41,256 bases of DNA from an uncultured Spirochaetales bacterium (lineage in GTDB: Bacteria; Spirochaetota; Spirochaetia; Sphaerochaetales; Sphaerochaetaceae): positions 1-41,256 of the forward strand of contig CAMEXG010000003.1 in the NCBI GenBank assembly GCA_945947045.1, read 5' to 3'. The notes below the pieces were generated by a model. It was not told where the DNA came from. It did no database searches and worked only from the letters and a program-made list of their open reading frames with translations. The translations under genes were made by a program, and so were the position numbers. Positions 26,003 through 29,286 of this stretch are shown here, piece after piece. Each line of letters opens with the position of its first letter. Within the stretch, counting starts at the first letter, position 1.

Positions 26003-26213
26003 CTATCATTTATTGTATGGTAAAATGCAATTCAACGCAAACTAGAAAGTAGTTTACTGATTCTTTTGTATTTATTTGAACAAAAAGGAATTAATTAAAA
26101 AGTTTTATTCGCTAAATCTTTATTTTATTAAAAATCGACAGTACTTTTCATCTTTCCTTGTTTCATTGTCTGTGTTATTCTCAAGTCTGTATAAAAAAGT
26201 AAGGAGAATCGTC

Positions 26214-26273
26214 ATGGACGGAGACCCCGGTAGTACAAAGAAACATATAGTATCCGTCTGGAACATACTCTGA
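26214..26273 (+). CDS. Putative 19-aa leader peptide of mgtE copy 1 (MDGDPGSTKKHIVSVWNIL)
   Basis: SD AAGGAG (26201-26206), 7-nt spacer, ATG GAC GGA GAC CCC...CTC TGA. N-terminus related to the leader ORF before the second mgtE. Confidence 0.75.
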   Translation: MDGDPGSTKKHIVSVWNIL

Positions 26274-26306
26274 CAGTGGACCTGTTCCGACGGATAGGAG
26301 GAACAG
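26251..26306 (+). promoter_or_regulatory. Candidate translational attenuator of mgtE copy 1: mutually exclusive anti-sequestor and SD-sequestor helices
   Basis: Anti-sequestor TATCCGTC(t)GGAACA 26251-26265 with TGTTCCGACGGATA 26283-26296 (14 bp, 1 bulge). Sequestor CTGTTCC 26282-26288 with GGAACAG 26300-26306, covering the last GG of SD AGGAGG (26296-26301) up to the ATG. Confidence 0.7.
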
Positions 26307-27665
26307 ATGACAAAGAAAAAAGAAAAACAGCAGGTAAAACCTGTAGACAAGGTCGTTATCTCTCCATTGGCTTTTAGGAATGAACTTAATAAGCTGTCCA
26401 GAGAGGATTTATTCATTAGAATTTCTAATCTAGATGAAGATGACAGAAAGAAAGCTTGGACTCTTCTAAGCGACGCGAAATGTGCAGAAATAATAGAAGA
26501 CTCAGGATCTCCTGTCGAATGGTTTTTGGAAATGAGTACAAAAAAAGAGAGTGGCGTAATATCTGTAATGGATGAAGAAAAAGCCACGGATCTTCTCTCC
26601 CTATTAGACCAAGAGAAGAGAGTCATGGTGATGGAGATGTCTGGAAAAAGCTTTCAAAAACGCCTGAGATACTCACCAGATGAAGTGGGGTCCATAATGT
26701 CTGAAGACTTCATTCTCTTGGAAAAATCTACAACCGTAAAAGATGCTTTTGAGAAAATCAGGGAAGAAGCAGAAGGGAAAGATAACATAAGGACTATCTT
26801 TCTCACAGATAAGGGAGAAGGGCTCTATGGAGAAGTGGACCTTCTTGATATTCTACGCTCTCCAGGAGACCAGACACTATCTTCTGTAGCCACCACGTCG
26901 TTCCCATATGTCTCGGCAAGTGCAAAGCTTTCAAAGACATTGGAATGGATTAAGGATTACAACCTTTCTTCATTTCCTGTAATCGACGAAGAGGGAAAGA
27001 CAATAGGTGCTGTAACGAGACAGAGTCTTATGGATATTGTCGAGAGGGAGATGGAGGAAGACTACAGAAAGCTCGCTTCTATAGGAGAAGACAAGAATAT
27101 GGGAGTAATATCATCTATGAAGGCTAGACTTCCTTGGCTTTTTATACTGTTGGGCTTAGGAATCATCGTTTCTTCATCCATAGGTTTTCTCTCATCTTTA
27201 GCCATGGGTCTGGCAATGGTTTTCTCTTTCCAGTCTCTTATCCTCGACATGACGGGAAACTCTGGAACTCAGACACTGGCAGTGGCTGTAAGAGCTTTAT
27301 CAGGAAGGGATTTATCCTGGAAGGAGAAGCTGACAATGCTGAAAAAAGAGTCTGCTTCAGGCTTTATTTCAGGTCTAATTCTTGGACTGGGAGCAATATT
27401 GGTACTATTTCCATATATTTTTCTACGTAGTGGTAACGGAGCATTATACTCTTTAGCTCTTTCTGTATGTATCTCTCTTTCCCTAATACTGGCAATGACT
27501 CTTTCAAATACAAGCGGTGCGTTCATTCCTATTGTCATGGAGAAAATCGGTGTGGATCCTGCAGTGGCATCGGGACCACTTATTACTACACTAAGTGACC
27601 TTATAGGAGCCTCTTCATACTACACTCTCGCCTATTTAGTGTTGAAAAAGGTGTTCCACTATTAA
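26307..27665 (+). CDS. mgtE: Magnesium transporter MgtE (copy 1)
   Basis: MgtE N domain, CBS pair, TM domain with LDMTGNSGTQTLAVAVRAL and GVDPAVASGPLITTLSDLIG. Confidence 0.95.
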   Translation: MTKKKEKQQVKPVDKVVISPLAFRNELNKLSREDLFIRISNLDEDDRKKAWTLLSDAKCAEIIEDSGSPVEWFLEMSTKKESGVISVMDEEKATDLLSLLDQEKRVMVMEMSGKSFQKRLRYSPDEVGSIMSEDFILLEKSTTVKDAFEKIREEAEGKDNIRTIFLTDKGEGLYGEVDLLDILRSPGDQTLSSVATTSFPYVSASAKLSKTLEWIKDYNLSSFPVIDEEGKTIGAVTRQSLMDIVEREMEEDYRKLASIGEDKNMGVISSMKARLPWLFILLGLGIIVSSSIGFLSSLAMGLAMVFSFQSLILDMTGNSGTQTLAVAVRALSGRDLSWKEKLTMLKKESASGFISGLILGLGAILVLFPYIFLRSGNGALYSLALSVCISLSLILAMTLSNTSGAFIPIVMEKIGVDPAVASGPLITTLSDLIGASSYYTLAYLVLKKVFHY

Positions 27666-27749
27666 AAATTTAGAAAAAAGTATGGAAAACCTTAGTTGTT
27701 AAGGGTTAATATTTCTTTGGCTCAAGCCAAAAAATTTTAGGAGAAAAGA

Positions 27750-27839
27750 ATGGACGACGGTACTGGAAGTATAGTCAATTTAGGCGGTTCGGACAGCGAA
27801 GTTCCTCTGAGTTTCCGTCGCATTCGACGGCAGAGCTGA
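27750..27839 (+). CDS. Putative 29-aa leader peptide of mgtE copy 2 (MDDGTGSIVNLGGSDSEVPLSFRRIRRQS)
   Basis: SD AGGAG (27739-27743), 6-nt spacer, ATG GAC GAC GGT ACT GGA AGT ATA...AGC TGA. Not in the supplied ORF track because of its length. Confidence 0.75.
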   Translation: MDDGTGSIVNLGGSDSEVPLSFRRIRRQS

Positions 27840-27875
27840 GCAAGATGATCCGCCTCCAAAATCAAATAGGAGGTG
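27782..27875 (+). promoter_or_regulatory. Candidate translational attenuator of mgtE copy 2: multibranch anti-sequestor versus SD-sequestor
   Basis: Anti-sequestor AGGCGG 27782-27787 with CCGCCT 27850-27855, enclosing CTCTG/CAGAG and CCGTCG-catt-CGACGG. Sequestor CGCCTCC 27851-27857 with GGAGGTG 27869-27875, hiding the SD AGGAGGTGA. Confidence 0.7.
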
Positions 27876-27882
27876 ACGAAGA

Positions 27883-29286
27883 ATGGATCCGGAGATTCAG
27901 AGCGGCCAGCATCCTGATTATGTAGGCGAGCTCGTAGAGATAATCAAAAGTAACATCTCACCCATGGCCCTGAAAGAAAAGGTAATGGGTTATCATGAAA
28001 ATGATATTGCAGATGCCATGGACAGGCTTACCCCCGAAGACAGGGGGAAGTTATACCGAATCCTCGACTCTGAAACACTGGCTAATATTTTCGAATACAC
28101 TGAAAACATTTCGACATATCTAAACGAAATCAGTGTAAAGAAAAAAATAGCTGTTCTCAGTGATCTCGAGACAGATAAAGCTACAGAATACCTGAAATCT
28201 CTCCCTAAAGGAGAGAGGACCACTCTCATTGAGTTCATGGATGATGATGCAAGAAAAGACATTGCACTTCTAGCATCCTTCGATGAAGACGAAATCGGCT
28301 CGATCATGAGCACAAACTTCATTGAAATAAAAACCGGAACAAGCATAAAAGAGGCGATGAGGGAGCTTATCGAGCAGGCTGCAGAGAATGATAACATCCA
28401 GACAATTTATGTAGTGGATTCAAACGGCCTTTTTTATGGTGCAATTGATCTAAAAGACCTTATCAGGGCAAGGGAAGGCAACACAATAGATTCTATCGTC
28501 TCTACTTCCTACCCTTATGTGTATGCCCATGAGTTGATTGACGACACCATGAACAAAATCAAGGACTATGCAGAGGACTCTATTCCTGTTCTTGATCAAA
28601 CAAATAAGTTACTTGGTGTAATCACCAGCCAGGATATGGTCGAAGTCATCGACGACTCCATGAAAGACGACTATGCGAAGTTTGCTTCTCTTGGAGATGT
28701 TGAAGACTTAAACGAGACGGTTGGACAGAGTTTGAAAAAACGTCTGCCTTGGCTAACCATCCTGTTGTTCTTGGGTATGCTTGTTTCAACTGTTGTAGGT
28801 CTCTTTGACTTTGTTGCACAGAAGCTCTCGATTCTTATCGCCTTCCAGTCTCTCGTCCTTGGTATGACCGGTAACTCAGGAACCCAGTCCCTTGCCGTTA
28901 CTATCAGAGTCTTGACAGATGAGAACTTGACTACCATGGATAAATTGAAGTTAATGTGGAAAGAAACAAGAATTGGTTTTGGTAATGGCGCCATTCTTGG
29001 CCTTACATCCTTCTTGGTCCTAGGTCTTTACGTATATTTCTTCAAAGACCAAAGTCTTTTGTATTCTTTCAGCGTCTCAGGCTGTACAGCCATCGCTCTT
29101 CTTGTCTCTATGACCATGTCTACTGCAATGGGCACTGTAATTCCTATTTTCTTTAAGAAAATCGGGGTGGATCCCGCAGTGGCATCAGGACCACTTATCA
29201 CCACCGTAAACGACCTTGTGGCTGTCGTTACATACTACGGATTGTCTTATTTGTTACTAATACGGCTAATGGGATTCGGCCTTTAA
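27883..29286 (+). CDS. mgtE: Magnesium transporter MgtE (copy 2)
   Basis: Same domain layout as copy 1; LGMTGNSGTQSLAVTIRVL and GVDPAVASGPLITTVNDLVA. Confidence 0.95.
   Translation: MDPEIQSGQHPDYVGELVEIIKSNISPMALKEKVMGYHENDIADAMDRLTPEDRGKLYRILDSETLANIFEYTENISTYLNEISVKKKIAVLSDLETDKATEYLKSLPKGERTTLIEFMDDDARKDIALLASFDEDEIGSIMSTNFIEIKTGTSIKEAMRELIEQAAENDNIQTIYVVDSNGLFYGAIDLKDLIRAREGNTIDSIVSTSYPYVYAHELIDDTMNKIKDYAEDSIPVLDQTNKLLGVITSQDMVEVIDDSMKDDYAKFASLGDVEDLNETVGQSLKKRLPWLTILLFLGMLVSTVVGLFDFVAQKLSILIAFQSLVLGMTGNSGTQSLAVTIRVLTDENLTTMDKLKLMWKETRIGFGNGAILGLTSFLVLGLYVYFFKDQSLLYSFSVSGCTAIALLVSMTMSTAMGTVIPIFFKKIGVDPAVASGPLITTVNDLVAVVTYYGLSYLLLIRLMGFGL

Follow-up and report, generated by a model that had tools for sequence, protein, structure and literature searches.

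A few enterobacterial leaders, MgtL and mgtQ, are known to sense Mg2+ through the instability of translation in its early phase. In the Salmonella mgtQ-mgtB system, a leader with Asp2 and Glu5 is combined with an RNA in which the pairings 1:2 and 3:4 hide the mgtB Shine-Dalgarno sequence (SD) and the pairing 2:3 frees it (PMC8092293), and E. coli MgtL carries the destabilizing motif EPDP (PMC11282234). Acidic starts destabilize ribosomes, and this intrinsic ribosome destabilization (IRD) is counteracted by high Mg2+ and by a nascent chain that fills the exit tunnel (PMC9718836). In B. subtilis, mgtE is controlled by M-box riboswitches (PMC12288461), while a mycobacterial M-box controls a uORF, unlike the arrangement described here (PMC12810186).

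We analysed a 41,256-nt stretch of DNA from an uncultured Spirochaetales bacterium (the window), which carries two mgtE genes in tandem, each preceded by a short ORF with its own SD (Table 1). We propose that both copies are probably under translated leader peptides that gauge the passage of ribosomes through their first codons. There is good support for attenuation through translation of the leader; the abort of ribosomes at low Mg2+ would, by analogy with the described systems, be its likely signal. Both mgtE copies and both leaders are also present in four genomes of the same genus (G031, G032, G033 and G058).

The copy-1 locus resembles mgtQ (PMC8092293) in its short ORF with acidic early codons (Asp2 and Glu5 in mgtQ, Asp2 and Asp4 in leader 1), in the Mg2+ transporter downstream, and in the same wiring of 1:2 + 3:4 versus 2:3 that would control translation initiation, with the end of the copy-1 SD lying in arm 4. 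It differs in that MgtE is not a P-type ATPase like MgtB, in its phylum and in the lack of recognised sequence similarity; moreover, the first cistron here has its own leader, whereas mgtQ is an intergenic region. The earlier note on this DNA had likened leader 1 to the acidic Mg2+ leader peptides, and the likeness is apt, with mgtQ-mgtB as the closest precedent. With MgtL of E. coli and Salmonella mgtA (PMC11282234) the locus shares an acidic, proline-containing start and an RNA conformation that would follow the progress of the ribosome, and the DPDP found in leaders of spirochaete relatives is close to the EPDP of MgtL. However, MgtL uses a Rho-dependent terminator, whereas the window has an SD hairpin and related clostridial leaders have intrinsic terminators. 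The M-box (ykoK) in front of Bacillus mgtE also controls this gene in cis, through terminator or SD expression platforms, but it is an RNA that binds Mg2+ itself and has no translated sensor ORF, and an Rfam match is absent here. The mgtE motif (SRC-65-1; PMC11109978), a riboswitch candidate found exclusively in Thioalkalivibrio, is likewise a cis element at the start region of mgtE; unlike here, no uORF appears in the accessible part of its description. Common to our leaders and the acidic IRD-type attenuators are an SD-bearing short ORF directly upstream, conserved early acidic residues and alternative folds, one of which would block expression of the transporter gene.

Table 1. Leader, switch and gene elements at the two mgtE copies (positions in the window; five genomes, the window's and its four same-genus relatives)
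Feature	Position	Strand	Sequence, product or pairing	Basis
Leader ORF 1 SD	26201..26206	+	AAGGAG	sequence; unchanged in 5 genomes
Leader ORF 1	26214..26273	+	MDGDPGSTKKHIVSVWNIL; 19 codons, Asp2/Asp4/Pro5	frame, start and stop conserved in G031, G032, G033, G058
AGT codon 7 of leader ORF 1	26232-26234	+	AGT	sequence
Copy-1 arm 1	26216..26222	+	GGACGGA; leader codons 2-4; pairs with 26253-26259	within MFE fold; invariant in 5 genomes
Copy-1 arm 2	26251..26265	+	TATCCGTCTGGAACA; partner is arm 1 or arm 3	2:3 energy; shuffle test
Copy-1 arm 3 (anti-SD arm)	26282..26296	+	core CTGTTCCGACGG; 26283-26296 (TGTTCCGACGGATA) pairs with arm 2, 26282-26288 (CTGTTCC) with arm 4	core invariant in 5 genomes
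Copy-1 arm 4	26300..26306	+	GGAACAG; mgtE SD end and spacer to ATG	invariant in 5 genomes
mgtE copy 1 SD	26296..26301	+	AGGAGG	sequence
mgtE copy 1	26307..27665	+	452 aa; ATG at 26307	Pfam MgtE 6.9e-28, CBS
Leader ORF 2 SD	27739..27743	+	AGGAG	sequence; conserved
Leader ORF 2	27750..27839	+	MDDGTGSIVNLGGSDSEVPLSFRRIRRQS; 29 codons in all five genomes	conservation
AGT codon 7 of leader ORF 2	27768-27770	+	AGT	sequence
Copy-2 arm 1	27755..27760	+	CGACGG; leader codons 2-4; pairs with 27815-27820	-7.1 kcal/mol
Copy-2 arm M (mid-leader)	27782..27787	+	AGGCGG	conserved; one G-U change in G033
Copy-2 arm 2	27815..27820	+	CCGTCG; partner is 27755-27760 or CGACGG 27825-27830	-7.1 vs -8.1 kcal/mol
Copy-2 arm 2'	27825..27830	+	CGACGG; rival partner for arm 2	computed pairing
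Copy-2 anti-SD	27850..27857	+	CCGCCTCC	GATCCGCCTCC invariant in 5 genomes; aSD:SD -11.4 kcal/mol
mgtE copy 2 SD	27868..27875	+	AGGAGGTG	sequence
mgtE copy 2	27883..29286	+	467 aa	Pfam MgtE 2.7e-30, CBS, MgtE_N

The short ORF in front of copy 1 and its SD, first pointed out in the earlier note, are present as described and conserved in the four relatives. Between the window and these genomes, the DNA from the leader SD to the mgtE ATG is 86-91% identical, compared with 64-77% in the 100 nt upstream of leader 1 and 36-51% at the 4-fold sites of copy-1 mgtE; this excess is the decisive evidence for the leader and indicates that it is under selection. The start MDGDPGS is present in all five genomes, and D2 and D4 thus occur in 5/5 copy-1 leaders. 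The comparison of mgtE upstream regions that had been proposed as a check also finds both the short ORF and the pairings kept in the four relatives, although the pairings are too uniform among the five genomes for compensatory changes. A DNA search of 141 genomes of the family found no copy-1 leader DNA beyond these five.

The helix between arms 2 and 3, described in the earlier note as 14 bp with one bulge, was found at exactly the coordinates given there; base by base it consists of 8+6 bp with a bulged T at 26259. A helix of 14 bp with at most one bulge arose in 1/400 dinucleotide shuffles of the leader-1 region, and the fold of the 141-nt region as a whole is only moderately better than that of shuffles (z -1.94). 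The pairing of arms 3 and 4 directly before the ATG was also confirmed base by base, and the claim that the two helices exclude each other holds. The minimum free energy (MFE) fold of the leader-1 region, however, is not the 14-bp helix. It joins codons 2-4 to codons 14-16 (1:2), using an arm 1 that had not been noted before, and the anti-SD arm to the end of the mgtE SD (3:4). The computed energies are -8.6 kcal/mol for 1:2, -10.2 for 3:4, -18.8 for both together and -18.1 for 2:3, and in this model copy 1 is a poised four-arm switch between 1:2 + 3:4 (OFF) and 2:3 (ON). The 3:4 hairpin covers just the second half of the SD. Control at translation, as proposed previously, is supported by the lack of a U-tract. 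The idea of a conditional leader switch thus stands, but ribosome drop-off alone, which had been thought to give the ON state, would be insufficient because the bare RNA folds as 1:2 + 3:4. For the window and G031, a ribosome-scan model predicts an unpaired SD fraction of 0.9 while a ribosome sits on codons 1-6 and of 0.40 once it has moved on; in G032, G033 and G058 the sequestor is still favoured even when arm 1 is occupied, and exposure of the SD is predicted in 2/5 copy-1 orthologues.

The leader of copy 2, which lay outside the earlier note, is also conserved: its first 36 nt are 94-100% identical in the four same-genus genomes, against 41-55% at the 4-fold sites of copy-2 mgtE, the start MDDGTGS is kept, and D2 and D3 occur in 5/5 copy-2 leaders. 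Here arm M can pair with CCGCCT at 27850-27855 (-7.6 kcal/mol), and this pairing can release the copy-2 SD. In the ribosome-scan model the SD hairpin nevertheless always wins at equilibrium, and the ON state is reached in none of the copy-2 leaders. Since this is so, and since three of the five copy-1 models keep the sequestor, kinetics must be invoked.

In a search with one genome per species, the nearest relatives of the copy-2 protein, a same-genus genome aside, were overwhelmingly from Clostridia (Lachnospiraceae, Oscillospiraceae and others, 52-60% identity), and also included Fretibacterium (Synergistota). Within the spirochaete family, most other MgtE proteins share 25-29% identity with it, and only three genomes of genus g2 come closer, at 48-54%. 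Among the 298 genomes of a Spirochaetota sample, the window's genome alone gave a match at E<=1e-80; the subfamily occurs in 1/101 Synergistota genomes. Because the nearest relatives are clostridial and the MgtE proteins of the family are distant, this similarity search suggests that mgtE copy 2 and its leader may have been acquired together by horizontal transfer.

Clostridial leaders of the same kind, likewise additional to the earlier note, were found among the regions upstream of 108 related mgtE genes, most of them clostridial. Of these regions, 70/108 carry a leader ORF whose SD matches over at least 6 nt, while the reverse strand gave 1 and shuffles 9.4; a relaxed SD adds six leaders, and two among the 70 belong to another type. 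About two thirds of the 108 genes have a leader ORF with acidic codons within positions 2-5 and few bulky residues, with typical starts such as MDSCDSHGRS, MANGDSCGSDGR, MTNSDSCG and MDGSSxRS. An acidic residue lies within positions 2-5 in 55/59 non-redundant leaders, Asp is at position 5 in 39/59, and bulky residues account for 4% at positions 2-10 versus 34% after position 16. The synonymous share among differing codon pairs is 25% at codons 5-6 and about 4% at codons 15-18, and the peptide itself is thus under selection; the second half of the leaders is not conserved in sequence. Seven leaders had no match to a Pfam or NCBIfam family (a scan that cannot take a peptide as short as the 19-aa copy-1 leader), and in the open-access literature we found no paper that describes leader peptides of mgtE in these groups. 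Strict pattern searches for such leaders gave 3 matches in 250 genomes, all before mgtE, and 0 in 190, with a pattern too strict to judge other genes.

The RNA pairings of these leaders were examined by a permutation test, which compares the pairing energy of a segment with its own partner at the locus to that with segments of other species. The SD and first codons (region 1) pair better with the second half of their own leader (region 2; own -29.3, cross -22.6 kcal/mol, p<5e-5), whereas the upstream-DNA and 1:3 controls were not significant. An intrinsic terminator follows the leader in 31/60 loci, compared with 4 in the reverse complement and 2.7 in shuffles. A general 2:3 pairing across Clostridia was not supported (p=0.29), and we therefore considered pairing of the mid-leader with the terminator arm: codons ~5-16 pair preferentially with the 5' arm of their own terminator (own -16.9, cross -12.9, p<5e-5). 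In loci where no terminator was found, the partner of these codons is the anti-SD arm (own -22.9, cross -18.6, p<5e-5), a result in which two or three loci weigh heavily. With a masked ribosome, the predicted antiterminator is 0.61-0.70 at codons 1-4 (0.70 at 1-2) and 0.02-0.11 at codons 8-16 (0.03-0.05 at 9-16), and it is favoured again (ON) with the ribosome at codons 22-27.

Leaders also precede another mgtE subfamily (25-29% identical) in the window's own family, among them MEAGSSRLFADPDPVPDLQSSVNKR, MESADPGPSRNAFLRKAF, MDSSDPGPGRQSFLRNAC, MDTDPGSC... and ...DGDDPLSRLF, with the motifs DPDP, DPGS or DDPLS. In 21 non-redundant spirochaete leaders, own partners pair better than those of other species for 1:2 (p=1e-4), for leader:downstream (p=5e-5) and for downstream:SD (p=5e-5); the upstream control was left out of these tests, its energies being invalid. 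What the sequences show is the conservation of the ORFs, the alternative pairings and the co-variation of these pairings across species. Several of the spirochaete leaders (L007, L009, L012, L018, L024, L026 and L028) carry TCCTCC late in the ORF. Because this complements the leader's own SD (GGAGGA), the sequence suggests that the leader SD itself may be masked in these cases.

The leaders also stand out in their codon use. Within codons 1-16 of clostridial leaders, AGT accounts for 70% of Ser codons and CGA for 71% of Arg codons, against 8% and 4%, respectively, in the mgtE genes of these genomes, while the later part has normal codon use. In spirochaete leaders AGT makes up 58% of Ser codons versus 9% (p=1e-18), with no CGA enrichment. 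An in-frame AGT is present in 58/59 clostridial and 20/21 spirochaete leaders, and is codon 7 in both leaders of the window. The AGU bias is not accounted for by IRD alone. We read it as slow codons that may prolong the fragile stage of the short chain, though AGU could also act for itself, as a codon signal or as an RNA signal. As clues, we note the near-invariant in-frame AGT within the first 16 codons across leaders L059-L178, and the restriction of CGA overuse to Clostridia.

From these observations we infer that the ORFs are translated, that ribosomes abort early and that Mg2+ is the signal, as follows. In bare leader RNA, or with a ribosome in the second half of the leader, the mgtE SD would be held in a hairpin (OFF). 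Ribosomes occupying codons 1-6 would cover arm 1 and leave arm 2 free to pull the anti-SD arm off the SD (ON). The start of the leader appears built for early failure, with acidic codons within positions 2-5 and hardly any bulky residues that could brace the chain in the exit tunnel, and rare or slow codons such as AGU would add to this. Low Mg2+ would weaken ribosomes on such starts through IRD, leading to abort and restart. In this proposal mgtE would be made at low Mg2+ because repeated initiation and early abort keep arm 1 occupied. At copy 2 the mid-leader segment would compete for the anti-SD, and the clostridial relatives would follow the same logic, often with a terminator in place of the SD hairpin.

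The same RNA wiring could serve an attenuator of codon supply, in which ribosomes slow at AGU (Ser) or CGA (Arg) when charged tRNA is short and the signal is tRNA charging or the general speed of translation. The overuse of AGT and CGA in clostridial leaders, the AGT excess in spirochaete leaders and the near-universal in-frame AGT fit this reading. We nevertheless consider it unlikely: the downstream gene encodes a Mg2+ transporter rather than a Ser or Arg function, the spirochaetes have no CGA bias, acidic residues and the scarcity of bulky ones are conserved as well, and slow codons could instead assist drop-off. Somewhat less likely still is an arrest peptide, whose nascent chain would stall the ribosome late in the leader, for instance at a VPLS-R motif, and so cover arm 2. 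The scan model does give antitermination at codons 22-27, and VPLS-like motifs occur in window copy 2, in G001/G007 and in the Fretibacterium leader L110; however, the second half of clostridial leaders is unconserved in sequence, unlike that of known arrest peptides, and a late ribosome on copy 1 predicts OFF (window and G031). A VPLS-like motif in the second half of leaders recurs across phyla (GVPLSHRIARP in L110 of Fretibacterium fastidiosum, EVPLSFRRIRR in window leader 2, TVPLSR in L039/L040).

Translated leaders can also keep RNA open, and the leader might be a mere coupling or shielding device that holds mgtE at a constant level without sensing. This is improbable given the terminators and antiterminators (31/60), the unusual conserved N-termini and the codon choice, which point to a conditional switch. 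We give least credence, and very little, to a Mg2+-binding RNA of the M-box kind in which the ORF is incidental. B. subtilis mgtE sets a precedent for it (PMC12288461), and some wobble bases (AGT) are conserved. On the other hand, SD, start, frame and stop are kept, codons 5-6 vary with a raised synonymous share, and the RNA pairings differ in sequence between species. M-box (ykoK) and other known RNA families were rejected, as Rfam covariance models gave no match at or near the window leader or in 20 clostridial loci.

Returning to early ribosome failure as the probable sensor, we put forward more tentatively, as a possibility that we would not yet favour, that these leaders form a large undescribed class of leader-peptide attenuators on mgtE. 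The class would span Bacillota, Spirochaetota and Synergistota and at least two mgtE subfamilies, and would sense Mg2+ by early ribosome failure on an acidic, small-residue start plus a near-invariant AGU Ser codon, the codon itself being part of the sensor. Many gut Clostridia and spirochaetes have similar undescribed leaders in front of mgtE, and these may be a widespread Mg2+ gauge. If so, the enterobacterial principle of MgtL and mgtQ would also govern the unrelated transporter MgtE in these bacteria, with SD hairpins or intrinsic terminators as outputs, and ribosome instability would be a general bacterial Mg2+ gauge beside the M-box riboswitch. With its dozens of natural variants, the leader family also lends itself to the question of which residues and codons cause ribosomes to fall off.

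Some features of the locus lie outside the leaders. The tandem mgtE pair is limited to the window's genome and its four relatives, and most genomes of the genus are without any MgtE match. Upstream of leader 1, facing the divergent rnf genes, a block at 26076-26113 (ATTCGCTAAATCTTTATTTTATTAAAAA) is strongly conserved in the five genomes and may be a promoter or a site for a regulator. A palindrome (TTTGGCTCAAGCCAAA, 27716-27731) lies in the gap from mgtE copy 1 to leader 2 and is present in relatives as TTTGGCCTAGGCCAAA and TTTGGCTTGGGCCAAA; one inner pair is changed there from T-A to C-G with the arms still paired, and the element is a candidate operator, hairpin or copy-1 terminator. Finally, MgtE copy 1 has a degenerate N domain (MgtE_N match of 23.5 bits, against a Pfam cut-off of 25.9), whereas copy 2 matches well, and the Mg2+ gating of copy 1 may differ.
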